The notes below the pieces were generated by a model. The model made no database searches. It saw nothing but the letters and a program-made list of their open reading frames with translations, and was not told where the DNA came from. This document shows positions 2,420-20,600 of a stretch of DNA of 45,049 nucleotides, in pieces. Origin of the DNA: Verrucomicrobiales bacterium (GTDB taxonomy: Bacteria; Verrucomicrobiota; Verrucomicrobiia; Limisphaerales; SXTU01); assembly GCA_005791875.1 (NCBI GenBank), contig SXTU01000257.1, positions 1-45,049 on the forward strand, given 5' to 3'. Each line of letters opens with the position of its first letter. Position 1 is the stretch's first letter. The position numbers and the translations under genes are program-made.

Positions 2420-3022
2420 TTAGCCCTTCTTCAATCCCGCACGCACGAGTTCTTCGACCGTCGCTTTCTCGCCGAGCATGGTCTGCGCGGCGCGGATGGA
2501 TTCGTGCGCTTCGGGCTGCTTGAAGCCCAGCGCCATGAGCGCGAGGACGGCGTCGTTGAGGCGCTGGTCGCCGGCGGACAATCCGCGCGCCGCGCTGCTG
2601 GCTTCCCATGCGCCGGCGGCTCCGATCTTGTCCTTCAGCTCAACGACGATGCGCTCGGCGGTCTTGCGCCCGACGCCGGAGATGGAGGAAAGGGACTTCA
2701 CGTCGCCGCTCGCCACCGCGCCGCGAAAGGCGACGGGGTTCATGCCGCTGAGGACGTTGAGGGCGATCTTTGGCCCGATGCCGCTGACGGTGTTGATGAG
2801 CATGCGGAACAATTCGCGTTCCGCCGCCGACATGAAGCCGTAGAGCACGTGGGCATCCTCGCGCACGACGAGATGGGTGAGGAGACGGACTTCTCCGCCG
2901 ACTGCGGGGAGCTTGTCGAAGGAGGAGAGCGGGATGAGCACGTCGTAGCCGACGCCGTGAACTTCCACGGTGATGAGAGTGGGCAACGCATCCACGAGCT
3001 TGCCGTGCAGAAAGGAAATCAT
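2420..3022 (-). CDS. ruvA: Holliday junction branch migration protein RuvA
   Basis: A 200-residue protein of normal RuvA length. Domain I begins MISFLHGKLVDALPTLITVE with VHGVGYDVLIPLSSF. Domain II carries two helix-hairpin-helix motifs, LINTVSGIGPKIALNVLSG and LSSISGVGRKTAERIVVEL. A linker is followed by domain III (DAVLALMALGFKQPEA...EELVRAGLKKG), which binds RuvB. RuvA tetramers hold the four-way junction while RuvB drives branch migration and RuvC cuts. ruvC lies upstream on the same strand with one small gene between. ruvB is not in this window. Start ATG at 3022. Confidence 0.97.
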   Translation of the reverse strand: MISFLHGKLVDALPTLITVEVHGVGYDVLIPLSSFDKLPAVGGEVRLLTHLVVREDAHVLYGFMSAAERELFRMLINTVSGIGPKIALNVLSGMNPVAFRGAVASGDVKSLSSISGVGRKTAERIVVELKDKIGAAGAWEASSAARGLSAGDQRLNDAVLALMALGFKQPEAHESIRAAQTMLGEKATVEELVRAGLKKG

Positions 3023-3486: not shown

Positions 3487-4104
3487 TCAGACGCGCTTGG
3501 CGGTGGCCAGTGAAAATCGGCTCGCGCTCTGCACGTGCGTGAGAGCGAGCGCGAGGGCGTCGGCGGCGTCGGGGTCTGGGAGTTCCGTGAGCTGCAACAT
3601 GCGCTGAACCATCTTCGCCACCGCGAGCTTCTGCGCCGCACCGTAGCCGACGATGGCCTGCTTCACCTTGCGCGGTGCGACCTCGAAGATTTCCAGCCCC
3701 GCCTCTGCCATCGCGACCAGTGCAGCGCCGCGCGCCTCGCCCATGATGATCGCGGTCTGCAAGTTCTGCGCGAAGAAGAGTCCTTCCACGATGCACACGG
3801 TCGGCTGGTGCTGGCGGATCACGTCGCGCAGCGTCGCGTGAATCTTCGCGAGGCAACGCGAGCGTTCCCAGCCCGCCGGACACTCGATGGTCCCGTGCGC
3901 CAGCGTGACCGGCTGCGGCTTCGCGACGCGGATGATGCCGAAGCCTGTCCCGCGCAGCGACGGGTCCACGCCGAGGATGACTTGATGGATGAGTGCGGAA
4001 GCGGTAGCTGGTGCTGCCGGCAAAGAAGTCGCGGTCCGCCGTTTGGCCCCGCTCAGGCGACGCTGCAACTGCTCAAACTCTTTCGGCGAGATGCCCACGC
4101 ACAC
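3487..4104 (-). CDS. ruvC: Holliday junction endonuclease RuvC
   Basis: The RuvC core starts at LIHQVILGVDPSLRGTGFG, carrying the first catalytic Asp. VCIVEGLFFAQN holds the catalytic Glu, and APRKVKQAIVGYGAAQKLAVAKMV is the DNA-binding/hydrophobic block. PDPDAADALALALTH carries the last acidic pair. RuvC resolves Holliday junctions as a dimer. The frame is open far upstream, but that part overlaps the toxin gene antisense, so it is not coding. I place the start at GTG 4104 (or GTG 4098), giving about 205 residues. The extra N-terminal segment, GISPKEFEQLQRRLS..., precedes the canonical start of the fold, where no ATG/GTG/TTG occurs. No strong ribosome binding site is visible. First gene of the ruvC-X-ruvA run. 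Confidence 0.93.
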   Translation of the reverse strand: MCVGISPKEFEQLQRRLSGAKRRTATSLPAAPATASALIHQVILGVDPSLRGTGFGIIRVAKPQPVTLAHGTIECPAGWERSRCLAKIHATLRDVIRQHQPTVCIVEGLFFAQNLQTAIIMGEARGAALVAMAEAGLEIFEVAPRKVKQAIVGYGAAQKLAVAKMVQRMLQLTELPDPDAADALALALTHVQSASRFSLATAKRV

Positions 4105-4289: not shown

Positions 4290-4318
4290 TTGACGGGAAG
4301 GCTTCGGCCGCGTAAATA
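4290..4318 (+). promoter_or_regulatory. Possible sigma-70 type promoter for the toxin-antitoxin/pilin block
   Basis: TTGACG (4290-4295) and TAAATA (4313-4318) are separated by 17 bases, about 54 bases before the toxin start. The -35 is 5/6 to consensus and the -10 is weak. Verrucomicrobial promoters are poorly characterised, so this is suggestive only. Confidence 0.35.
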
Positions 4319-4371
4319 CATTGTCGTGACACCGCAACGCCAATGGACATACAGCGCGAACCGGATGGTTT

Positions 4372-4665
4372 ATGGACTTTGACTGGAACAATCCTTCGTT
4401 CACCCCGGCGGACGGGCTGACGCTGCAGGACGTGGAAGAGTCCTTCGACGACGCGTTCGTGGTGCGGCTGCTGCCGGACTCGGCGCGGTTCGCGGGGCAG
4501 GCGCGATACTTCAATCTGGGCCGGTCGGCGAGCGGGGTGGGCGTGTTCAGTTTGTATCGGACAAACGGGAAGCAGGTGCGGGTGATTTTCGCCCGGGAGT
4601 TTTTGCAGGAAGAGCAGTTCTTCTACAAGCGGCGCGTGACGCAGTTGCTCGATCATAAAGACTGA
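4372..4665 (+). CDS. BrnT-like toxin of a type II toxin-antitoxin pair
   Basis: This 97-residue protein has the BrnT layout: FDWNNP near the start (family: F-x-W-D-x-x-K), a helix with LQDVEESFDDAFVV, then RYFNLGRSASGVGVFSLYR and RVIFAREFLQEEQFFYKRR near the end (family: R-x-I-S-A-R-x-x-x-x-x-E-x-x-x-Y). BrnT is a RelE-fold ribonuclease that blocks translation. The usual early His is not obvious, so the match is by pattern rather than active site. The antitoxin gene starts 2 bases after its stop, and the toxin-first order is the brnTA order. A competing upstream ATG (4365) hits a stop after five codons, which decides the start at 4372. Confidence 0.65.
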   Translation: MDFDWNNPSFTPADGLTLQDVEESFDDAFVVRLLPDSARFAGQARYFNLGRSASGVGVFSLYRTNGKQVRVIFAREFLQEEQFFYKRRVTQLLDHKD

Positions 4666-4667
4666 CC

Positions 4668-4952
4668 ATGACGGCGATTTCCAACTGGGATGCGGTGCCG
4701 GCCTTTCAAAGCGAGGTCGAGGAAGCGGACTACTGGAAGGAGCACCGGCTGGAGATGCGGCTGATGGATTCTTCGATGGTGGCGGGCGCGGAATCCACGG
4801 AGTCGGTGACGGTGACGTTGCGGATGGACCCGCGGATGCTCTCACGCATCAAGCGCCTGGCGCGGTCGCGGTATCTGAACTACCAGAGCATGGTGAAGCA
4901 GTGGTTGAGCGAGAGAATGGAGCAGGAAATTCGAGACCGAGGAACGAAATGA
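4668..4952 (+). CDS. CopG/BrnA-like ribbon-helix-helix antitoxin
   Basis: This 94-residue protein begins with the acidic, aromatic segment PAFQSEVEEADYWKEHRLEM, typical of CopG-type antitoxins that follow BrnT-like toxins. A ribbon-helix-helix DNA-binding domain follows: SVTVTLRMDPRMLSRIKRLA, then ARSRYLNYQSMVKQWLSERM. Such antitoxins bind the toxin through one part and repress their own promoter through the other. The stop (TGA 4950-4952) overlaps the start of the first pseudopilin gene (ATG 4949), so the antitoxin and the pilin-like gene are probably translationally coupled. That is unusual for a TA module and may place the surface apparatus under antitoxin autoregulation. Confidence 0.78.
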   Translation: MTAISNWDAVPAFQSEVEEADYWKEHRLEMRLMDSSMVAGAESTESVTVTLRMDPRMLSRIKRLARSRYLNYQSMVKQWLSERMEQEIRDRGTK

Positions 4953-5647
4953 AGATGAGCACCAAACAAAACTATTCGGGCGGGCGAAACACGGCGGGCT
5001 TCACGCTCATCGAGCTGCTGGTGGTCATCGGGATCATCGGGATGGTAGCATCGCTAATCGTGGTGGGTCTTGGAGCCGTGAACTACAAGAAGGGCGTGAG
5101 CGGAACCAAGGCTCAACTGGCCAAGCTGGAGTTGGCCATTGAAAGCTACAAATCCGTCTTCGGCTCCTATCCGCCTGATGATCCCGCCACGGCGGCGGCC
5201 ACGCCGCATTGGAATCCCCTGGCCTACGAGTTGGGCGGCGTGCGGCGCAGCGGCGTCAACTACACCGCCGAATCCGACCCGACACACACGGTCACACCGG
5301 CGATGCTGTCGAGCTACTTCAACTTGGGTGGACTGGTGAACGTGCAGCCCGCAGGCCCCTCCAAGCACAAATACGCCCTCAGCCTGCAGCGGATCGGAAC
5401 GGGAAAGACTGCGGACGCTGTCTTCATCACCAGCGGCGTGGCCGGCATGCCGGCTGCCCTATTTCTACAAGTCCCAGCTCAGAAGCCGGACACTAATGAT
5501 CTCGCCGGTGTTCCAGTGCCGGACATCGGGCTAAACGTCTGGAAATACCGGGTGTATCCGGCCGGCGGACACAATCCCAAGACCTACGACCTCTGGGCTG
5601 AGATTAGACAAAAGAAGGGCACCAACATCATCGGCAACTGGAAATGA
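4949..5647 (+). CDS. Prepilin-type pseudopilin (type II secretion/type IV pilus-like)
   Basis: A 232-residue protein. The leader of 17 residues ends GGRNTAG, followed by FTLIELLVVIGIIGMVASLIVV, the class III signal with Gly at -1 and Glu at +5 of the mature chain. A long N-terminal helix continues with AQLAKLELAIESYKSVFGSYPPDDP, typical of GspG-like major pseudopilins. Start ATG 4949 was chosen because GAGGAA (4939-4944) lies 4 bases upstream and the ATGA overlap with the antitoxin stop is preserved. The protein would be processed by a prepilin peptidase encoded elsewhere and assembled at the inner membrane. The C-terminal part (AEIRQKKGTNIIGNWK) resembles the end of the next gene, suggesting a duplicated pair. 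Confidence 0.88.
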   Translation: MKMSTKQNYSGGRNTAGFTLIELLVVIGIIGMVASLIVVGLGAVNYKKGVSGTKAQLAKLELAIESYKSVFGSYPPDDPATAAATPHWNPLAYELGGVRRSGVNYTAESDPTHTVTPAMLSSYFNLGGLVNVQPAGPSKHKYALSLQRIGTGKTADAVFITSGVAGMPAALFLQVPAQKPDTNDLAGVPVPDIGLNVWKYRVYPAGGHNPKTYDLWAEIRQKKGTNIIGNWK

Positions 5648-6450
5648 ACTCGGATTCCAACATGAAACATCATCCTCATCGCAACCACAGCACTCGGCGG
5701 GCCTTCACCTTGATCGAGCTGCTGGTCGTCATCAGCATCATCGGCATTCTGGCGGGACTCCTGATGCCCGCCTTGGCCGGGGCCAAGAAGCGAGCCAGGA
5801 TCGTGCAGACCCAGAAGGACATGGCCGATCTCAAAGGTGCCATCAGCGTGTATCAGCATGACTACAACCGCCTGCCAGCCTCGACGCCGGCGGCGCAGAT
5901 TGGCAGCGACTTCACGTATGGCACCACCCCCCCCGGCACAGGCTACGGGACGAACATCGTGAACAACAACAACGTGGGCTACCAGGCCAGCAATGCGGAG
6001 TTGATGGTGATCCTGACCGGCGGAGCCACGAACGGTTGGACAGGCGTGCCCATTGATCCCTCGGCACAGAACGACGGGCGTAATCCGCGCAAGAACCAAT
6101 ATTTCAACGCGAAGCCAGCACCGGGCGGCTCTGGAGCAGCAGCCGGCGCGGGCTTGGGCACCGACGGCGTCTTCCGCGATCCGTGGAGCAATCCCTACAT
6201 CGTCGGGCTGGACTTGAACTACGACAACTCGGTCAGCAACTCAGTCTATCGTTTGCAAGCTGTGTCGCAGATCGCAGTGAACAGCCCCGGCGGTTATTAC
6301 GGGCACACTGGCACAGGAAACGGCAACAACAACAACTACACCGTGCGCGACACCGTGATGATTTTCTCCTTCGGCCCGGACGGGATGTTTGACGCGGGCA
6401 CAAAGGCTGACGCGGTCCCGAACAAAGACAACGTCCTGAGCTGGAAATGA
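5644..6450 (+). CDS. Prepilin-type pseudopilin, GspG-like
   Basis: A 268-residue protein. The leader ends HSTRRA and the mature chain begins FTLIELLVVISIIGILAGLLMP, with Glu at +5 but Ala rather than Gly at -1. Residues after the helix (QTQKDMADLKGAISVYQHDYNRLP) match the GspG signature in which a Tyr-Pro-type turn follows the helix. The body is rich in Gly and Asn (NNNNVGY, GNGNNNNY). The end, RDTVMIFSFGPDGMFD...SWK, resembles the C-terminal strand of verrucomicrobial pseudopilins (DDVYSWGPDG type). Its ATG overlaps the previous stop by ATGA. ATG at 5662 is a possible alternative start. Likely a major or near-major subunit of the same fibre as the gene before it. Confidence 0.88.
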   Translation: MNSDSNMKHHPHRNHSTRRAFTLIELLVVISIIGILAGLLMPALAGAKKRARIVQTQKDMADLKGAISVYQHDYNRLPASTPAAQIGSDFTYGTTPPGTGYGTNIVNNNNVGYQASNAELMVILTGGATNGWTGVPIDPSAQNDGRNPRKNQYFNAKPAPGGSGAAAGAGLGTDGVFRDPWSNPYIVGLDLNYDNSVSNSVYRLQAVSQIAVNSPGGYYGHTGTGNGNNNNYTVRDTVMIFSFGPDGMFDAGTKADAVPNKDNVLSWK

Positions 6451-6454
6451 GTTT

Positions 6455-7462
6455 ATGAAGCTTGCCGGTCATCTTGTAGCCGCCGACGTGAGGACGCGGA
6501 GAGCGCTGGAAGAAGCGGATTCCACCTCCTCAGCTCGGCGGCTACGGGCGCGGCTGGCCTTCACGCTGATCGAGATGCTTGTGGTGCTGGGCATCATCGG
6601 CGTCCTGGCGGCGATGACCCTGCCGTCGTTTAAGAAGGCGGGCAAAGGCAACCTCACCGAGTCCGCCTCCCGGCAACTGCTGGATGATCTCGCCTACGCG
6701 CGGCTCAAGGCGCTGGGCACCCGCACCCCAGTGTATGTGGTCTTCTCGCCGGACCTGGCTTGGTTCGGAGCCTTGTCACCGGCCAACGTTCTTTTTCTCA
6801 CCACCAACTACGCCGCCAACAACGTCATCGGCGGGCAGTTGACTTCGTATGCGCTTTTTTCACCGCGCTCAGTCGGCGATCAGCCGGGCCAGAGCACGCC
6901 GCGCTATTTGACGGACTGGCGCTCCCTGCCAGACGGCGTCTTCATTCCTTGGGAGGCTTTCCGTCAAAACGCCATCTTCCACAATCTCACGGGCAGCCCG
7001 CAGACGGGCCAACTCATCCCGGTGGATGAGGTGCCGGGGGCGGTGTCGCTGCCGCTGCCGTTCATCGCGTTCGACGACCAGGGCCGCCTGTTCGGACGCA
7101 ACACAAACCTCACCGTCAGCCTTGTCGAAGGGAGCATCATGCATCCCAAGGACATCACCGGCCAGACGAACAGCGTGACCACCGTTGACCCGATCGCGAC
7201 TGCGCCACCGGTTGACAGAACCAACATCGTGTCGGGAATTGAGTATATGGTTCTCAACCAAAACCCGACTCCTGGAGCGCCGCTGTCGTCGGTCACCTAC
7301 CCAGGTGTCGGCACAGTCACAGCCGGCCGGACCTTCCTCGGCACTCTTGGCAACACCACCTACACCGTCGCAGCCGGTTCGCCCCGCGTGGTTCAGCACT
7401 ACGGCGTGCGGATCGAGTGGTCCACGGGCCGGGCCAAGGTCGTGAAACCTGAACTGCAATGA
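6455..7462 (+). CDS. Prepilin-like protein, Verru_Chthon cassette protein D-like (GspH-like)
   Basis: A 335-residue protein whose mature helix starts FTLIEMLVVLGIIGVLAAMTLP at residue 36, with Ala at -1 and Glu at +5. Then ESASRQLLDDLAYARLKALG follows, the GspH-type pattern of minor pseudopilins. The body is Pro/Thr/Asn-rich, and near the end HYGVRIEWSTGRAKV resembles the last strand of such proteins. The 35-residue leader is long because codons 8-31 are an inverted repeat (6476-6545). A normal leader can be recovered only by removing it. From memory, four-gene sets of one very large and three prepilin-type proteins in Verrucomicrobium and Chthoniobacter are called Verru_Chthon cassette A-D. 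The D assignment rests on size and order, not on a search. Confidence 0.75.
   Translation: MKLAGHLVAADVRTRRALEEADSTSSARRLRARLAFTLIEMLVVLGIIGVLAAMTLPSFKKAGKGNLTESASRQLLDDLAYARLKALGTRTPVYVVFSPDLAWFGALSPANVLFLTTNYAANNVIGGQLTSYALFSPRSVGDQPGQSTPRYLTDWRSLPDGVFIPWEAFRQNAIFHNLTGSPQTGQLIPVDEVPGAVSLPLPFIAFDDQGRLFGRNTNLTVSLVEGSIMHPKDITGQTNSVTTVDPIATAPPVDRTNIVSGIEYMVLNQNPTPGAPLSSVTYPGVGTVTAGRTFLGTLGNTTYTVAAGSPRVVQHYGVRIEWSTGRAKVVKPELQ
6476..6545. repeat. Palindromic element inside the leader of the D-like prepilin gene
   Basis: Left arm GTAGCCGCCGACGTGAGG (6476-6493); right arm CCTCAGCTCGGCGGCTAC (6528-6545). The arms pair at 16 of 18 positions. The whole element, including the central 34 bases, is read in frame as residues 8-31 of the prepilin leader. 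Similar GTAG...CTAC-ended palindromes occur between genes at 31494 and 36617. Confidence 0.85.
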
Positions 7463-8313
7463 ACTTGAACCCCCGTCAGCAACGCTCTGGACGTGACCAC
7501 GCCACGGTCTCCTCCCTCTCCCTTTGCGGAGCAAGGGGTGAGGGCCGGGGTGAGGGGTTTGGCGCGTCGGCGTTCGTGGCCGCACCCCTCATCCGGCCTT
7601 CGGCCACCTGCTCCCCTCGCTCCGCGAAGGGAGCAGGCAGCATCCGCACCCAACTGGCCTTCACCATGGTCGAGGTCGCCTTGAGCCTCGCCATCGTCGC
7701 CTTCGCCATGGTCGCCATCATCGGCGTCATGCCGGCGGGCCTCAACGTGCAGAAGGAAAACCGCGACGACACCGTGCTGTCGCAGGACTCCTCTATGATC
7801 CTCGAGGCCATCCGCGGCGGCGAGTCCAGCTCGAACCTCACCGCGCTCTCCACCGCGCTGGTCGGGCCGATCTACGGCGTCAACCTCAGCACCTACCCCT
7901 CCACGAACTCACCCCTCGACATCGTCAAGCGCCTCAGCATCCCGGCGTGGGACACCAGCGGCTTCACGACCGGCGCGACGGTGGCCGTCTCGGCGCGATT
8001 CCGGGCCATGAGCGGCGGGCTGGGCGACACCGCCGGGTCCGCGACGAACATGGCCTTCACCTACTACGTGCAGGTCCAGATCACGCGCTTCAACCCCGAC
8101 CCCTACACTCCCTTTTACAATCCCCTCGCGACGAACCTGCACGAGCTGAAGCTCACCTTTCAGTGGCCCGTGTATGACGATCCCGGCATCACCACCCCGC
8201 CCACGCGCGTCGGCAACCGCCAGCTCATACTGCGCTCGCTCATCAGCGGCCAGCTCGTCAACTGGACCAACGGCGGCTATTTCTTTCGGACCGAGAGCTT
8301 CAACGCCCAATAG
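7459..8313 (+). CDS. Prepilin-like protein, Verru_Chthon cassette protein B-like (GspI/PilV-like)
   Basis: A 284-residue protein. The mature helix begins FTMVEVALSLAIVAFAMVAI at residue 68 (Ala at -1, Glu at +5), then GVMPAGLNVQKENRDDTVLS. The M-V-E-V-A-L-S-L-A-I wording and the GLNxxKExxDxT continuation are, as I recall, characteristic of cassette protein B and resemble the PilV/GspI minor subunit. The leader is 67 residues, far longer than usual, because codons 18-60 are a palindromic repeat (7511-7637). The start ATG overlaps the previous stop (ATGA). The remainder is a beta-rich domain ending RQLILRSLISGQLVNWTNGG, with no catalytic motif. Function is inferred from family: a tip or priming subunit. 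Confidence 0.78.
   Translation: MNLNPRQQRSGRDHATVSSLSLCGARGEGRGEGFGASAFVAAPLIRPSATCSPRSAKGAGSIRTQLAFTMVEVALSLAIVAFAMVAIIGVMPAGLNVQKENRDDTVLSQDSSMILEAIRGGESSSNLTALSTALVGPIYGVNLSTYPSTNSPLDIVKRLSIPAWDTSGFTTGATVAVSARFRAMSGGLGDTAGSATNMAFTYYVQVQITRFNPDPYTPFYNPLATNLHELKLTFQWPVYDDPGITTPPTRVGNRQLILRSLISGQLVNWTNGGYFFRTESFNAQ
7511..7637. repeat. Palindromic element inside the leader of the B-like prepilin gene
   Basis: Left part 7511-7557 contains CCCTTTGCGGAGCAAGGGG (hairpin), then GAGGGCCGGGGTGAGGGG. Right part 7582-7637 begins GCACCCCTCATCCGG and ends with CTGCTCCC...GGGAGCAG (hairpin). The family signature GGGCCGGGGTGAGGGG is shared with the elements at 14397-14531 and 34035-34158. The whole element is read in frame as residues 18-60. 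Confidence 0.85.
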
Positions 8314-8322
8314 AACTCAGCC

Positions 8323-9507
8323 ATGAAAACCACGCCCCAGCTCTTCCAGCGCGCGGCCGCCCGCGCGGTGACGGTGCTGGAGCTGCTCGTCGCCATCAGC
8401 CTCGTCTCCTTCATCATCCTGGCGCTCTACCAGATGTTCGACCGCACGCAGGCACAGATGCGCCGCGCCGTGCGCGAGACGGACAAGTATGAGTCCGGCC
8501 GCTCGACCATGGACATCATCCGCCGCGACCTGACGCAGCTCGGCTACGTGAAGACGCTCTTCAACTCGGGCCACGGCGCCATCGCCACCAACTGGAACAA
8601 CATCCTTTTCGCACCAGCGGGCTACAGCGCGGCGACCTATTACCAGCCGGGCAGCCTAGTGAACAACGGCGTCAACTCCTACTTCGCCCTGAGCGGCAGC
8701 CTCAACAGCAACGTGCTCTCCTCCCCGACCGCTTGGGCGCTCGCCGCTCCGAACCTGCGCATCAGCAGCCTTTGGAATTCGCCCACCCCGACCGTGATGC
8801 TCAATGCTGGCGGCGCGATCCTCCAGACCAATTTCATCCACGACCTCTTCTTCATGTATTTCGACCCGAACATCCGCACGACAATCGTGGCGAGTGGATC
8901 GATTCAACCGGGCGTTAGCTATGTGGCCACCAACACGCTCACCTATCCACCTGGGGTCACAACCTACCTGGCGGGTGCTTCGTTTTACGGTATGGCGGGT
9001 TTCCCCAATTACGCTGGCGGCGCGAATCGCGCCCTTCAGATCGAGGGCGGCTGGCGGGCCGTCGGCTACCGCGTGGCCAGCTCCACCAACGCGCTCTACC
9101 CGCTCTCCACCACGCCGGGTCTGGGCACGCTCTACCGCTACGAGCTTGGCACCTACAACAACGACGCGACCCGGATGTGGTATGCGATCAACAACTTCGC
9201 CGCCAACACCCCCGCCTCGCAGACCAACCTCTTCCGGCGCGTCGCGGACAACGTCGTTCACTTCAAATGCACCGCGTATGCGAACAACTCGACCTTCCCC
9301 GTGAGCGGAGGCGACGTGCTGTTCTTCGGCACGAACGTCCCGCGTTACGTCGAGCTGGAGCTGGGCCTCCTCGACAGCAAGGTCGCCGCGCAGGCTCAAG
9401 GCATGGTCGCCGGCACGAACACCGCCGCCGCCGCCGCCTTCCTCTACTTGCAGGGCGACGCTGTCCAGATCTTCCGCCTCCAGCTTCCCGTCCGCATAGG
9501 CCAGTGA
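8323..9507 (+). CDS. Prepilin-like protein, Verru_Chthon cassette protein C-like (GspJ/PilW-like)
   Basis: A 394-residue protein. The leader MKTTPQLFQRAAARA is followed by VTVLELLVAISLVSFIILAL, with Glu at +5, Ala at -1 and Val instead of Phe at +1. Next comes YQMFDRTQAQMRRAVRETD and SGRSTMDIIRRDLTQLGY, the pattern of GspJ/PilW-type minor subunits, where an Arg-rich helix is followed by a disulphide-poor beta domain. The leader here has normal length, in contrast to the D- and B-like neighbours, which carry repeats. The stop (TGA 9505-9507) overlaps the start of the next gene (ATG 9507). It ends with VQIFRLQLPVRIGQ. It probably forms a tip complex with the B- and D-like proteins. Confidence 0.78.
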   Translation: MKTTPQLFQRAAARAVTVLELLVAISLVSFIILALYQMFDRTQAQMRRAVRETDKYESGRSTMDIIRRDLTQLGYVKTLFNSGHGAIATNWNNILFAPAGYSAATYYQPGSLVNNGVNSYFALSGSLNSNVLSSPTAWALAAPNLRISSLWNSPTPTVMLNAGGAILQTNFIHDLFFMYFDPNIRTTIVASGSIQPGVSYVATNTLTYPPGVTTYLAGASFYGMAGFPNYAGGANRALQIEGGWRAVGYRVASSTNALYPLSTTPGLGTLYRYELGTYNNDATRMWYAINNFAANTPASQTNLFRRVADNVVHFKCTAYANNSTFPVSGGDVLFFGTNVPRYVELELGLLDSKVAAQAQGMVAGTNTAAAAAFLYLQGDAVQIFRLQLPVRIGQ

Positions 9508-12500
9508 TGAAACTCACCTTCCCATCCCGTCCGGTCGCGACGCTGCGCAGCATGGTAGGGCGCGTCTGTCCCCAGCGCGCCGCCGCATCATCCGGCAACC
9601 CGAGCGGCGCGCTGGGACAGACGCGCCCTACCCGCCCTGCCTCCGGCGTCGCGCTCGTCGCCACGCTCATCATGCTTTCGCTGGTCACGTTCATGGTCGT
9701 GGCCTTCCTCGGCATCGCGCGCCGCGAACGCCGCTCCGTCGAGGCCACGCTGACTCAGGGCGAGGCGCGCAACGCTGCGGAATACGCGGTGCAGCGCGCG
9801 CAGGCCGACCTCGTCGCCCGCCTCATCGCCACTGGTGACAAATGGAACTACGGCCTGATGGTCCCGACGAACTACCAGAGCGGCAATTCTTTCACCTCCG
9901 GCGTCGCCAATGTGCTGAACGTGAACTCGGCTGAGGCCTACAGCACCTACTTTGCGAACCCAACCCCGGCAAACCTGGCGAACTATTTCCTCCGGAACAT
10001 CGCCAACCTGCAATACGACGCACGCGTGCCGGTCTTCTCCACGAACTTCACTAATGCTACGGCGTTCACGAACGGAGGCTTCTCCGCACCTCACTCGGCC
10101 GAAACCAACCAAGGGCGCTACTACTACGACTTCAACCGCAATGGATATTTCGAGCCGACCGACCGCTTCCAGTCCGGCGACCCACACTGGCTGGGCGTCC
10201 TTGAAAACCCCGGCCAGCCGCACGGGCCGAACAACCGCTTCCTCATCCGCTACACCTACCTGATGGCGCCGGCGGGCAAGACACTCGATCTGAACCTGAT
10301 TCACAACCAGGCCAAACTCCGCCCCGGCGTCAACTCCGAGGGCTACTACCGCAACCACAGCCTCGGCCCGCAGGAGATGAACACGGCCGCACTGCTCGCG
10401 GAGTTGAACCCGTATTGGGGCTGGTTCAATCCCGCGCCCGCCTACGACACGTTGGCTGCCAATCCGAGCGTGTATGTCTCCGCGCTGAACAACCGTAACC
10501 CCTTCCGCGACGCGCTCAACCTGCTCCTGTTCCGGAATAACGGCAGCTACAACAATTATCCCACGCTGGGCACGCTCTTCGGCGCAGCCGCGGCCACGGC
10601 GCTGACCAACGCGGAGTTCGACGTGCTGGCAAACGGCCCGCTGATGGGCAGCACCAATTTCACCGCCAACGTGGACGGCACCAACACCGTCTGGGTCGGC
10701 GGCACCAACACCGCCGCGGTCCCGCAGCAGTTCCACGACATGAACGAGCTGTTCCTCACCACGCGCAACTACACGCCGTTCACCACGAACCTCCATTATC
10801 TCGGCACCAACATCGCCGCGACCGCCGCCGGGGACCGTGACCGCCGCACGTTCTACGACCTCCTGAACGTCCTGGGCGTCGAGTCCGCACCCGTGGGCGG
10901 CAGGCTCAACGTCAACTGGTCCAACTCTGCCTTCAACCCCACCAACATCACCATCGGCTCCTCCGGCGGCGACCTCACCGCCTTCTCGGGATGGGACCCG
11001 AACTACTTCTTCTTCAACGCCGCCGAGTTGATGATCCGCGCGAGCTGCAGCCCGCAGATCTTCATGAACAACAACTGGACCGGGTTCGCCGGGACCGATC
11101 CGCTCGTGCTCGCCACGAACTGGTTCATGGGCGGCGGCTTCAACTTCAACTACGTCAACACCTACTACACCAACAGCGCCCTGCTCTTCCCGTTCCTCTA
11201 TGCGCCCGGCGTCGGGATCATCAGCAACGTCTATGCGGGATTCGTCGTGGACGTGAACCGCACGAACAGTGGCGGGATCAGCCTGAGCGTCACGAACATC
11301 CCCATCTACCCCTTCAGCTACTACTCGGGCGAAGTCCACCGGCTCCTCCAGTTCGCGGCGAACCTCTACGACGCCACCACCACCAACAACGCCTCGCCCG
11401 CCTACCCCACGCTCTTCCGTCCCTACTTCGCCTTCAACACGAACGGCTGGCCCAGCAACGACTTCATCAAGATCGTCGGCTACTGGACGAACGGCACGGA
11501 CACCAACCTGCTTGGCCTCCCAACGTATGAGCTCGCCGATCCAGACAGCCGGATGGCGCTCTACACCAACGCGGGAGGGATCACCGGGACGGGAGATGGC
11601 ACCAACTTCTCGTGTTTGATCGCCGGCACGCCGGTGATCATCGGTGCCAAGAAGGGCTACCCGAGCTTCAACGAGTTCGGCGTGCAGACGCTTTTCTCCG
11701 ACACGCGGCGGCTGGAGTTCGTGAAGACCAACGGGACGAACATCGGACCGATGGCACTGGCCGGCGGCAGACCGCTGGTGCAGACCAACCAGTCGCAGAT
11801 CATCGGACTGACCAACATCTTCGGCTTCGAGATGTGGAACTCCTACGCCTTGGCCTTCGGGCGTCCGTTGACACTGGTGGCGACGAACATCACCCGGATC
11901 GTTCTGACGAACGAGTTCGGCCCGGTTTACACGAACATCAGCACCAACGGCACGAACATCCTGATCCCCGCTGGCACATGGCCGGGCTTTGCCGGGAACA
12001 ACCCCAACAGCTTCAAGAGCTTCTTCTTCACGAACGTCCCCGCGCTGTCCACGAACATTGCGCGCGGCTACGCCTACGCGACGAACTACCCGCCGCTGGC
12101 CGGCTTCACCAACGGCGGCTTCATTCCCGCCAGCCCCAGCGGCCCCGGCAGCCCGAGCATCTTCAACCGCTCGAACGGCTTCCCGGAGATGCGGTTGGGC
12201 ATCACCATCACGAACACGCTTCTCTACGCGCTCTACGAAACCGCCAACAACCGCGTGGTGGACTTCGTCACCCTCACGAACCTCGTGGCCGGCATGGACC
12301 TCGCCACCGCGCTGCGCGTGACCAACAGCCCGACGGACCTCGGCGTGCGCTACTGGTTCACGAACCGCGCCGGGGCCACTGTCTTCGACCGCACGCTGGG
12401 CATCTCCAACCAGATCGCGATGTGCCTGGACACAAACGTCAACAACCAGACGACCAACCTCTGGCGGCAATATAGCTTGAACACTCCTGTCCTGCGGGAG

Positions 12501-14531: not shown

Positions 14532-14679
14532 ACGCGTCCGCTCTACCGCGACGATCGTGCTTCACGAAAAGTCTCCCAGCCAGCCTGCAAGCAGGCGAGC
14601 TGCGCGCGTTCAGCAATAGACCGTATTGTCGGCCATCCTCCCTGGCTCGTAACCTCTCGGCACACTCGCGGAAGTGCGT

Positions 14680-17600
14680 ATGAAAAACCGAAACTGGTTT
14701 CTTCCCTGCCTGCTGCTGCTCATCGCGGCCGCGCTCCTCCTGCGTCAAGGCGAGCAGCGCCGCCAGCGCGAGTTGACCGGCAACACCACGAACGACACGC
14801 CCGCCCAGCCCGGCCTCTGGGAACGCTTCACCCGCCTGCCCTCAGTCCTCACCGGACGCAAGCCCGCCACTGCGGCGAAGGCTTCGCCCGGGTCTTCCAG
14901 CGCGCACATCACCTCCCTCGGTGATGACCGCCAATATCCCTTCCGCGTCCGCAACACCTCGAAGAAGGACTCCGAGCTGTTCCGCAGCGAGACCGCCGTG
15001 CTGATGCGCAACGCCCTCATCGAGACCCTTGAACCGGCGACGATGAACATCCCCGCGCACCTTCGCGCGCAGGGCGATCCCGGCAGCTACCTCGTGCAGG
15101 CGCGCGGGACGATTGACGACAAATTCCGCGCCATCCTGCGCGGCGTCGGCGCGGAGATCGTCAGCTACGTGCCGAACAACACCTACCTCGTCCGCGCCAG
15201 CGCGAACGACGCCCAGCAGCTCCGCATCTCCCCGCGCGTGCAGAGCGTCCTGCCCTTCGAGCCGTTCTACAAACTCGACATGACGCTTCTCCCGCTGGCC
15301 GTCCGCCGCGAGGCGATGCCCGCAGGCCGCTGGCTCAACCTCGTTCTCTTCTCCGGCACGCAGACGGCCGCGATGGAGCAGCTCCGCGCGCTCGGCGCTG
15401 AGGTGAAGGGCGAGCAGCCGTTCCCCTTCGGCCACGTCGTCACGATCGCGCCGCCCGCGAACAGCCTCGTCGCGATCGCGCAGTTGTCCGCCGTGCAGAA
15501 CATCGAGACGTATCACTCGCCGATCCTGATGAACGACCTCTCCCGCGTGCGCCTTGACGTGTCCACGAACACGACGGACGTCGCGCCTGCCGGCAACTGG
15601 TTGAGCCTGACTGGCAACGGCGTCACCGTCGGCGTCGTCGGCTCGGGCGTGGACCTCGCGCACACGGGCCTCATGGGCCGGATGTTCGCCAACACCGTCA
15701 GCGCCACCACCGACGTGGGCGGCCACGACACCTTCGTCGCCGGGCTGATCGCCGCCAACCACAGCACCACACCCGCCGCAACAAACGGCTCCATCGCCGG
15801 CGGCTCCTTCCGTGGCATCGCGTCCGGCGCGCTGCTCTTCCCCCTCTCGCTCTTCGACCGGGACTACACCAACTACGGCAACGTCTGGCTCATCACCAAC
15901 TCCGCGCTGGCCACGGACAAGCTGACCATCGTCAACAACAGTTGGGGCTACCCTGTCTCCACCTACGACATCAACTCCGCGCTCTTCGACGAGGCGGTGC
16001 GCGACTCCCTCCCTTTCCGCTCGCACGACCAGCCCATCACGCACGTCTTCGCCGCCGGCAATTCCGGCGGCGCGAACTCCGGCGGCACCGGCGGCGCGGC
16101 GGACACCATCGCCTCGCCCGGCAACGGCAAAAACGTCATCACCGTGGGCGCGTCGGAGCTGCTGCGCTTCGTTCCCAATTCGCTAAACTCCACCAATTTT
16201 GGCACCAACGACCCCATCGCCATCGCGCACTCCGACAGCCTGGACCAGGTGGCCGACTTCTCCAGCCGTGGCAACGTGGGCGTCGGCATCGAGGGCACGG
16301 CGGGCCGCTTCAAGCCCGACCTCGTCGCGCCCGGCGCGTATCTCGTCTCGCTCCGCGCCTCCACCTTCACGAACCTCCAGGAGACCGACGTGCAGAACAT
16401 GCTGGGTTCCTCGCAGTGGCGCTACGACTCCGGCAGCAGCTTCGCCGCCGCGAAGGTCTCCGGCGTGCTCGCGCTGATGCAGGAGTTCTTCGCCGTGAAC
16501 CACACCCGGACGAACAAGCCCTCGCTCAACAAGGCGCTGCTCATCAACCGCGCCCAGTCCCTCGGCCCGGCCTACGACTTGGCCGTCAACAACCCCGTCA
16601 CCCATCAGGGCTGGGGCATCCCCTCCCTCAGCAACACGGTGCCATCCACCGCAGCCGCGACCTTCGGCTTCCTGACCAACTCCTCCCCTGTCCCGCTGAC
16701 CGCTCGCATCGTCATCGTGGACGAAAGCTCCTACGGCACCAACCACCTCGCCTCCGGTCAGTATCACTCCTACAACGTGGCGGTGTCCGGCTCCCCCTCG
16801 CAGACGAACTTCCTGAAGATCACCCTCGCGTGGACCGACCCGGCGGGAAACCCCATCTCCTCCGCCAAGCTGGTCAACGACCTCGACCTCTACGTCACGA
16901 ACCTCGTCGCCGCCGGCTCCGTGTATGAGGGCAACAACTTCGCGCCCGGCACCACCTTCACCCAGCCCACGCCGCCGGGCAGCCAGAGCCAGCGCGACGC
17001 GGTGAACAACGTGGAGAACATCTTCATCCCGCTGACCAACACCGCCGCCACGACCTACCGCATCTACGTCATCGGCCGGAAGGTCAACGTCAACGCCGTC
17101 TCCGGCAACACCAACCAGGTCGCCCAAGACTACTCGCTCGTCATCTCCACCGACCAGACCACGCGGACCGTCGGTGTCCAGCCGACGCCCGGAGCCTACC
17201 CAGCCGGCTTCTTCAACTACACCAACCGCCTCGTCAACATCGTCACCAACGGCCTGCCCTACCTCAACGAGCGCGTGGGTGCGAACCCGGGCCTGTTCAG
17301 CGTGAACGGCACGGCCAACGCCAACACCAACGGCGTCACCAACCAGTGGAACTTCTACGTGTTCACGAACCAGAACTACGCCAGCGCGACCGCGACCAAC
17401 ATGGTCACGAACGTCGTCGCGGGGGTGACCAACATCACAACCAACGTGGTCCGCCTGCCCATCACCAACGGCGGTCCCTATGTCACGCTCTCCACCTTCC
17501 TGCCGCCCAACCTCGCCCGCAGCCGCATCAAGGAGGCCGACGTGGATATGTATGTCACCCGCAGCAGTCTGGCCTACCCGGGACTTTCCGGAGCTGGCGG

Positions 17601-20600
17601 GTTGACCAACCTTGATCCCCAGGTGCTCTCACACGCCAACACACTCCGCTCGACCAACCGCGGCGGCTACGAACTCATCGCTGTGACCAATTCTTCGACC
17701 GGTCCTCCCGGCGAGGTCTTCTTCGTCGGCATCAAGTCCGAGGACCAGCAGGGCGGCCAATACGGCTTCCTCGCCGCCGCCACGCAGTTGCCCTCCAGCA
17801 CCAACTCCACCAACGGCGGCGTGTTCATAGACCTGTTCCCCGTGCCTGCGGAAATCCCCGACGGCTCCCCCGAGGCCCCCGGCGGCATCATGCTCTTCGG
17901 CATCTGCACCACCAACATCACCATCCAGAGCCTTTCCAATTCCCTGACCTACGTGCATGAGAACCTCGGCGACCTCGTCGGCACCCTCACGTTCAACGGC
18001 ACTGTCATCACGCTCAACAACCACACCATCTCCCCCACCGCTGCGCCCGCCCCCGGCGGACTGGTGACGAACGTCCTGACCTTCGACGACTTCCGCAACC
18101 CGCCCGACGGCCCCGGGGACGTGACCGACCTCATCGGCCAGGACGCCATCGGCCTCTGGATTTTCGAGGTCTATGACAACGCGCCCTTCCAGACCGGGTC
18201 ACTGGACTATGCGAGCATCTACATAAGGCCCTACACCAACGCCTACAGCACGAACACCGGCGTCTTCTACCGCACCGTCGCGCTTCAGCAGGGCCAGTCC
18301 TTCGTGGACTTCCTCGACATCCCGACCTACGCGACCAACCTGGACGTGGACATCATCGGCGGTGGTCTCGCGGGCGTGCCCGGCCCCGCACCGCAGGGCC
18401 AGGGCGTGGACCTGCTCGCTGGCTCACCGGGCTTCATCCCGTCGTCCTTGGCCTACTCGATCGGCACGCTCGACCTCGACAATTCGGATTCCTTGCTTCT
18501 CCCGCACCTGCGCATCTCCTCCGTCGCCTCGCTCAACCTGACCAACAGCTTTGCCGCGCCTGCTGGGACCCCCTCGCTCACACCGGGCCGGTGGAATTTC
18601 CGCATCATCAACAACTCCGCCGGACTGCTCACCCTCACGATCCGCTACACGCTGGGCTTGGACCTCTCCACGTCCCTCACGGACCTGTCCTTCACGAACG
18701 CGCTTGCCCCGCTCTTCGACAACTCCGTCACCAACCTCTTCATCACCGCGGGGCAGGACCGCGTCGTCGCCGGCGTGGACGTGGGTCTGGCCATCAAGCA
18801 CCCGCGCGTCTCGGACCTCGTCATCCACCTCATCAGCCCGAGCGGCACCAAGGTCCTGCTCTTCGAGGACCGCTACGGCACCAACGGCCTGAGCGTCTCG
18901 AACCTCTACGCGAACTTCAGCGAGAACACGAACTTCTCGACCCACATTGACACCAACGGCTACGCGGCGCTGGGCTTCCACAACCTGGGCTACCTGATGC
19001 CCATGAAGTTCATCCCCGCGCCCTTCTCCGCCGTCATCTCCCCGCCGCTCCTCTTCACCAACGCGACCAACCTCACCTTCGGCTACCGGGACGGCCTCGG
19101 CAGGGTGAAGGAATCCCCCAGCGGCATGGCGCAGCTCGGTGGTTCCCTCTTCATGGCCGGCGTGGCGGACCGCAACAACACGAAGGACGGATTCCTCGTG
19201 TCCTACCAGACGCCGATCCTGACGAACGTCTCCACGAATCTTGTCTTCACCCAGTTCATTGCCGGCGTGCAGGTTTCGAGCAACCTCATCAGCTATCCCG
19301 TCACGAACTTCGCCGTGACAAATTTCTGGACCGGCCCATTCAGCGGCTATCGCGGCGCAGGCGTCGGCGGCACGGAGCCGCAGCAGACCTTCTTCAACGG
19401 CGTGGCGGTGACTGCGGACGGCGTGGTGGCCGTGGGCCAGACGCGCAACTGGTTCCCGCCCGTGCTGCACACTTGGAGCGGCACGAACTCGCCGCAAACC
19501 AACGACGTGGACCTGGGCTGCACCTCCGGGACGATCCAGTTCACCTTCGCAGGAGCCACCGCCAACCGGATGCTGATCGAGTATCAGGGGCTTTCGCTGA
19601 TGGATGCGAATGGGACCGCCGCCTACTCGACCAACATCCCGTTCAGTGGCGCGTCCCGCTTCATGCGGATCACGGCCAACCCCACGGCGGTAGCGGTCGG
19701 CTCCACATGGTCGAACACTCTCACTGTCTTGCGCAGCGGCGGAGTCAGCTACGCCGTGTCCGACTATGTGTCCGGTGCCGTGCCGGGCATCAGCGTCGCG
19801 CCCGCCACGCTCTCAGCGCCGCGCGGCGTCGCCCTCGACAGCACCGGCAACGTCTATGTGGCGGACTCCGGCAACGGCCGTATCCTCCGCCTGAGCCGCG
19901 CGCTGACCATCCCGTTCGCCGGGACAGACGGGACGTTCTCCCCCTTGAGCGTGGCCTTCCCGGTGATCACCGGATTGAGCAGCCCCGGCGGCGTGGCCAT
20001 CAACTCCACGAACGGCGACATCTACGTGGCCGACACGGGCAACCACCAGGTCAAGCGCTTCAGCAACGACGGCACGCTCCTCTACACATGGGGTGCTGCG
20101 GCCATGACCGCCGGCAGCGAGGACAGCGGCGCACCAGGCTTTCCCGATGGGCGCTTCAACGGCCCGCAAGGTCTCGCCCTCAGCAACAACGCCGTCCTGT
20201 TGGTGGCGGACACCGGCAACAACGTCATCCGCCAGATCGGCGGCGTCGCCCTGACCACGCTGACAACGCCAGTGGCCGTGGCTCCGTTGTCCGCTCCGAG
20301 GTCCGTGCTGGTGGCCGGCACGAATGTTTACGTCGCGGACACCGGCAACAACCGTATCAAGACTGTCAACGGACTTGGAAGCGTGCTCGCCGGTTCGGGA
20401 GTCGCAGGCTCGGTGGATGGCGTGGGCTTGGGAGCGACTTTCAGCGCGCCCTCCGGCATCACCCGCGATGGCTACGGCAACTTCTACGTGTCCGACGCCG
20501 GAACGCACCGCATCCGCCGCGTGACACCGCTGGGCCAGGTGGAGACGATCGCGGGCAGCGCGTCCGGCAACTCCCCCAACGCCGTCGGCACGCTGGCGCA

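Follow-up and report, generated by a model that had tools for sequence, protein, structure and literature searches.

What becomes of a gene pair that looks like a toxin-antitoxin (TA) module when it heads an operon of secretion genes? The question is raised by a locus in a 45,049-nucleotide stretch of DNA from a Verrucomicrobiales bacterium (the window, on contig C222 of a genome of 4.7 Mb and 314 contigs), where a BrnT-like gene (T) and a ribbon-helix-helix gene (A) precede a row of pseudopilin genes (table 1). A sequence-only reading had taken T, A, and the pilins as one chain that probably shares a transcript; if the antitoxin represses its own promoter, free toxin or proteolysis of the antitoxin would raise pilin expression, and the pair may protect the long cassette from deletion. 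When the open reading frames were re-read, the gene boundaries given there were confirmed, as were the 2-base gap between T and A (4666-4667) and the ATGA (4949-4952) shared by the TGA stop of A and the ATG start of pilin 1. Our results, all of them comparative, partly support the chain: its structure and autoregulation appear to hold, and the parts that depend on a toxin do not.

Table 1. Genes and putative regulatory features of the T-A locus; coordinates are those of the window.
Feature	Position	Strand	Basis and remarks
Promoter: -35 TTGACG (4290-4295), 17-bp spacer, -10 TAAATA (4313-4318)	4290-4318	+	Read by eye; conserved in relatives
Putative ribbon-helix-helix operator	4311-4354	+	CGTAAATACA (4311-4320), TGTCGTGACA (4322-4331), then two weaker units, the last TGGACATACA (4344-4353)
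Toxin-like T (BrnT-like, without catalytic Lys-His dyad)	4372-4665	+	97 aa; PF04365 sub-threshold, hhalign, Foldseek
Antitoxin-like A (CopG/BrnA-like ribbon-helix-helix, putative DNA-binding)	4668-4952	+	94 aa; PF12441, 40.2 bits
GspG-like pseudopilin 1	4949-5647	+	N_methyl PF07963, TIGR02532; ATGA overlap with A
GspG-like pseudopilin 2	5644-6450	+	N_methyl; TIGR01710 below its cut-off; ATGA overlap
GspH-like pseudopilin (Verru_Chthon D-like)	6455-7462	+	TIGR02596 and TIGR01708, both below cut-off
GspI-like pseudopilin (Verru_Chthon B-like)	7459-8313	+	TIGR02598 below cut-off; ATGA overlap
GspJ-like pseudopilin (Verru_Chthon C-like)	8323-9507	+	TIGR02599 and TIGR01711, both below cut-off
Large GspK-like protein (Verru_Chthon A-like), 1586 aa	9507-14267	+	TIGR02600 at N-terminus, below cut-off
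Giant subtilase-family protein (Peptidase_S8, NHL, P-domain)	14674-23511	+	PF00082, 1.4e-33; syntenic in relatives; last conserved gene of the cluster

The genes of the cassette are co-directional with short gaps, and overlaps recur along it (ATGA at 5644 and 7459; TGATG at 9505-9509), which gives it the usual look of one operon. Together with a single conserved promoter and the failure to find a terminator between antitoxin and pilin, this arrangement makes the claimed shared transcript a well-supported prediction. Prepilin N-terminal motifs (N_methyl above its cut-off in three window pilins) and GspE/GspF genes linked in relatives are those of a type II secretion/type IV pilus pseudopilin operon; a TA-less relative (L152) carries GspE-PilT-GspE-GspF (T2SSE/T2SSF domains). 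The gene types are those of the Verru_Chthon A-D cassette (TIGR02596/2598/2599/2600) and of the type II secretion (T2SS) pseudopilins GspG-K, to which the best N-terminal matches point. However, no window protein scores above the curated cut-offs of the Verru_Chthon A, B, C, and D models (all four match N-terminally and sub-threshold), and the locus differs from the known cassettes in having two GspG-like genes, a GspF neighbor in relatives, and the added T-A pair.

The locus was followed through 78 genomes of the order (phylum Verrucomicrobiota), which span 61 families; 52 of these genomes are of good quality. T and A are each present in 62 of the 78 genomes and in 47 of the 52 good ones, with one orthologue of each per genome; a few genomes have a second weak match to a true BrnT or BrnA-like gene. 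The two are side by side in all 60 loci fetched (∼60 families), and pilin 1 is the next gene in 59, the contig ending at that point in the remaining one. The same TA-pilin junction is thus found in relatives, where the sequence-only reading had suggested looking for it. Farther downstream, the order P1-P2-D-B-C-K-subtilase is kept as far as each contig reaches, although some weak members go undetected at individual loci. Upstream, GspF lies ∼100-400 bp before T in most loci with enough sequence (about 30), and a strong terminator hairpin separates GspF from T in 10 of 61 loci versus 0 of 305 shuffles. Recurrence of the pair, its order, and its pilin junction across the order is more than chance.

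Within the window, the upstream surroundings of the pair are local in character. The T-A operon there has ruvC (3487-4047, minus strand) and ruvA (2420-3022, minus strand) as divergent neighbors. This linkage is specific to the window and was seen in none of the fetched relatives, which have GspF upstream. GspF is not adjacent in the window; the genus of the window has lost that neighbor.

The proposal that A and the pilin are translationally coupled fits mainly the genus of the window, where the ATGA overlap occurs in 9 of 10 members; over the order, a pilin start codon at -4 exists in 21 of 59 loci. The nearest possible pilin start is ≤20 nt from the antitoxin stop in 48 of 59 loci. Judging from these junctions, coupling by ATGA would be mostly a genus-level feature and operon linkage an order-wide one.

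The pair is also under constraint. Identity of T across the set is 46-92%, and that of pilin 1 outside the genus is ∼30-40%. Estimates of dN/dS of about 0.10 for T and about 0.09 for A indicate purifying selection, and within the genus, pN/pS is 0.16 for T and 0.14 for A versus 0.38-0.46 for the pilins.

Neither the distribution nor the mobility of the pair is that of a type II TA module. True BrnT genes above the Pfam cut-off are patchy, with 13 in the same 78 genomes, and one from a sibling genome matches 884 plasmid records. T of the window (P0001) has two weak plasmid matches and no match among phages. Single-copy synteny and near-absence from plasmids and phages rule out a recent mobile insertion. 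The pair thereby departs from BrnT/BrnA of Brucella abortus (PF04365/PF14384; COG2929-COG5304): it is core and syntenic rather than patchy and mobile, and it has secretion genes as cargo on the same predicted transcript.

Resemblance to BrnT/BrnA lies in the toxin-first order, the BrnT-like fold, the ribbon-helix-helix partner, and operator-like palindromes in the operon's own promoter. By sequence, T of the window is below the curated cut-off of the BrnT family (PF04365; 17.3 bits against 34.5). The model matches 44 of 61 T members at E ≤ 0.01, and one of them (G029) reaches 34.9 bits. A search of PDB sequences with the T or A profile gave no match. An AlphaFold (AF2) model of T, built from the 61-sequence alignment, has a pLDDT of 88; its best Foldseek matches in the PDB, none at E ≤ 0.001, are 7vd7_A, a Salmonella toxin-antitoxin complex (probability 1.00, TM 0.61), and BrnT itself (3u97; 0.97). 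Comparison of the T profile with seven true BrnT proteins of the order by hhalign gave 96.9% probability (E 2e-10). On account of these structural matches and the profile comparison, we regard T as a divergent relative of BrnT with a predicted BrnT/RelE-type fold. A of the window exceeds the cut-off of CopG_antitoxin (PF12441) of 28 bits, and all 61 A proteins match at E ≤ 0.001. Helices are predicted at 55-67 and 72-93 (moderate-confidence model). Most of the 21 invariant columns of A are in its ribbon-helix-helix region, which is nearly invariant across the order and beyond, unusual for an antitoxin.

The residues on which toxicity depends in relatives bear on whether T is a toxin. K16 and H17 of BrnT contribute to its toxicity, the equivalent residues in RelS (K9, H10) severely affect toxicity, and K17 and H18 of Aave_1720 also matter; the RelS paper names R72 of BrnT among the contributing residues as well (PMC13284704, PMC10714953). 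The Lys-His (KH) dyad is absent from all 61 T proteins, whereas all seven true BrnT proteins of the order carry it; in an alignment with these, T is three residues shorter at the KH site. Strong relatives of T elsewhere, in further families of the class and in one additional class, are KH-less as well. RelS of the RelS-RelI pair (Mycobacterium tuberculosis) and Aave_1720 of Aave_1720/1719 (Acidovorax) are, like T, BrnT-related and encoded ahead of their antitoxin; unlike T, they keep the dyad and are toxic (PMC13284704, PMC10714953). T keeps an arginine, R75, that aligns with the conserved arginine of the RIISAR motif of BrnT. Loss of the dyad makes effects of free toxin on pilin expression, and protection of the cassette by addiction, unlikely. 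We consider it rather probable, from these alignments, that T is non-toxic. Nevertheless, dyad loss does not prove inactivity because R45, R75, and Y85, among the 16 invariant columns of T, could form another RNase site.

The region upstream of T is consistent with autoregulation. A strict promoter scan of the window reports no promoter because it accepts only -10 boxes whose sixth base is T; by eye, only one promoter site is seen ahead of T. Across the order, 47 of the 58 loci that could be aligned carry a TTGACA box (≤1 mismatch, 16-18 bp spacing). Most loci share the layout TTGACA-N17-TGTAAATACA-T-TGTAATTACA-TTGCATGGGC...TTTACA ahead of T, and TGTAAATACA (≤1 mismatch) lies 44-71 bp before T in 49 of the 61 loci. 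These are TGTA-NN-TACA palindromes in tandem with an 11-bp period, or one helical turn, and in the window, the weaker units keep the register of the two clear ones. Tandem palindromes on such a helical period are the layout used by ribbon-helix-helix repressors. The putative operator covers the -10 box together with the probable start of transcription, so that a conserved palindromic site lies in the pair's own promoter, where an autoregulatory operator of a type II TA module would be sought. Autorepression, on which the earlier reading drew, is accordingly a well-supported prediction, with A as the putative binder of this site. Conservation across the order extends 3' of the two clear units to the stretch TTGCATGGGCGATTGATTTACA (window 4333-4354), which may represent further weak operator units or a leader element.

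The operator is essentially private to the locus. Its 20-mer occurs once in the genome of the window, even with three mismatches allowed. A looser pattern turned up in 47 of the 78 relative genomes, in nearly every case as a single copy ahead of T, versus two genomes for a reversed control; where a genome of the order has no T-A pair, the pattern is at control level. We considered a wider regulon of A, but the exact pattern occurs elsewhere in few relatives only, and on present evidence this is not a conserved regulon. Extra copies in G068 and G072 are at contig ends; that of G068, at the end of the GspF contig, is probably the same locus, and in G072 the same sequence is present twice. One relative (G059, L198:5056-5074) has another complete TTGACA-TGTAAATACAATGTATTCACA promoter-operator, located ahead of a putative secreted-protein operon that adjoins a GspD secretin; orthologues of the secreted-protein gene in other genomes are without it. 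In another (G057, L199:4917-4935), a perfectly palindromic copy (TGTAAATACAATGTATTTAC), preceded at 17 bp by a TTGACC box, lies away from the T-A locus and has no clear target gene. In other families of the class, matches to the operator are only at the level of the reversed-pattern control.

Three genomes (G012, G030, and G041) represent natural controls. In each, pilin 1 and the remaining cassette come straight after GspF, and T, A, and the operator are all missing. The sequence-only reading had named a cassette conserved without the pair as evidence against itself, and these three provide it: the pair is dispensable and not needed for the cassette to persist, which, along with the missing dyad, speaks against the idea that it protects the cassette from deletion. 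A GspF tree scatters them over three positions among genomes that have the pair, which points to independent losses; support for the branches is weak, however, and the starred branches force only one change. Many other T-less genomes are incomplete or without a recognizable pilin 1 match, and the three are the apparent losses seen where the cassette is kept rather than a total.

Relatives of the pair extend beyond the order. In a phylum-wide sample of 388 genomes, 50 have a match at E ≤ 1e-4, with ∼26 strong ones outside the order; the weakest matches are ordinary BrnT proteins. In another family of the class (G399), the pair is located between a GspF-preceded pilin and another pilin, and in another class (G081) it precedes GspG-, GspG-, GspH-, and GspJ-like genes. 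Conversely, in further families of the class (f63, f68, and f72; loci L321-L324 and L327-L334), the same KH-less pair has VanZ-like, MiaA-MnmA-MnmE, or glyoxalase genes as neighbors, and both the pilins and the TGTAAATACA operator are missing. The function of the pair may therefore be wider than the secretion operon.

We favor, as the better-than-even explanation, that a core, vertically inherited pair derived from BrnT/BrnA has been domesticated as a repressor and co-repressor controlling a type II secretion pseudopilin operon. A would occupy the tandem palindromes that span the -10 box and the start of transcription, thereby repressing the whole T-A-pseudopilin-protease transcript. T, no longer a BrnT-type RNase under this proposal, would bind A, presumably via the conserved N-terminal half of A, and tune repression as a co-repressor or anti-repressor depending on the T:A ratio. 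Feedback between T and A, along with anything that destabilizes A or titrates T, would then determine pseudopilin output.

Other explanations have to be weighed against this domesticated regulator. A working type II TA module could have settled in the secretion operon and been kept by addiction or by stabilizing the cluster. The BrnT-like fold of T, the toxin-antitoxin gene order, the ribbon-helix-helix antitoxin, and the autoregulatory-looking operator are all what such a module would have, but with the dyad missing throughout, a single-copy pair syntenic across ∼60 families, almost no plasmid or phage relatives, and the cassette kept in three scattered pair-less genomes, we find a working module unlikely. 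T might instead retain RNase activity through a rearranged active site (R45, R75, Y85, and E81, for example) and regulate chosen mRNAs, possibly the operon's own, without poisoning the cell. The invariant columns are compatible with such a site, as are the alignment of R75 with the conserved RIISAR arginine of BrnT and the contribution of a BrnT arginine (R72) to toxicity. Binding to A would explain that invariance equally well, however, and a dyad important in three relatives is missing; a retained RNase seems improbable to us. The pair could also have a housekeeping or regulatory role of its own across the class, in which case its position as the first genes of the pilin operon in the order would be secondary. 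Pairs beside VanZ, MiaA-MnmA-MnmE, or glyoxalase genes fit this explanation. Against it, the pilin linkage in a second family and in a different class suggests that the linkage is old, and the operator is tied to the promoter of the T-A secretion operon, leaving a class-wide role as very unlikely.

An extension of the favored explanation, which we offer tentatively and regard as possible rather than probable, is that T is a sensor subunit that monitors the secretion machine, through its state or the substrate load, and binds or releases A to adjust transcription of the whole operon. If true, a selfish TA module would have turned into a secretion checkpoint that is fixed throughout a bacterial order.

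A literature search turned up nothing on Verru_Chthon cassettes and nothing that describes a TA pair alongside pseudopilins, which is weak evidence as most subscription papers are outside its scope. It has long been debated whether chromosomal TA pairs can turn into ordinary regulators of their host, and few cases combine fixation with a lost catalytic motif, a conserved operator, and a defined operon as cargo. The T-A locus has all four, across ∼60 families. Annotation of its first gene as "BrnT toxin" can mislead on function. The locus also gives a direct handle on the control of type II secretion genes in a little-studied phylum.
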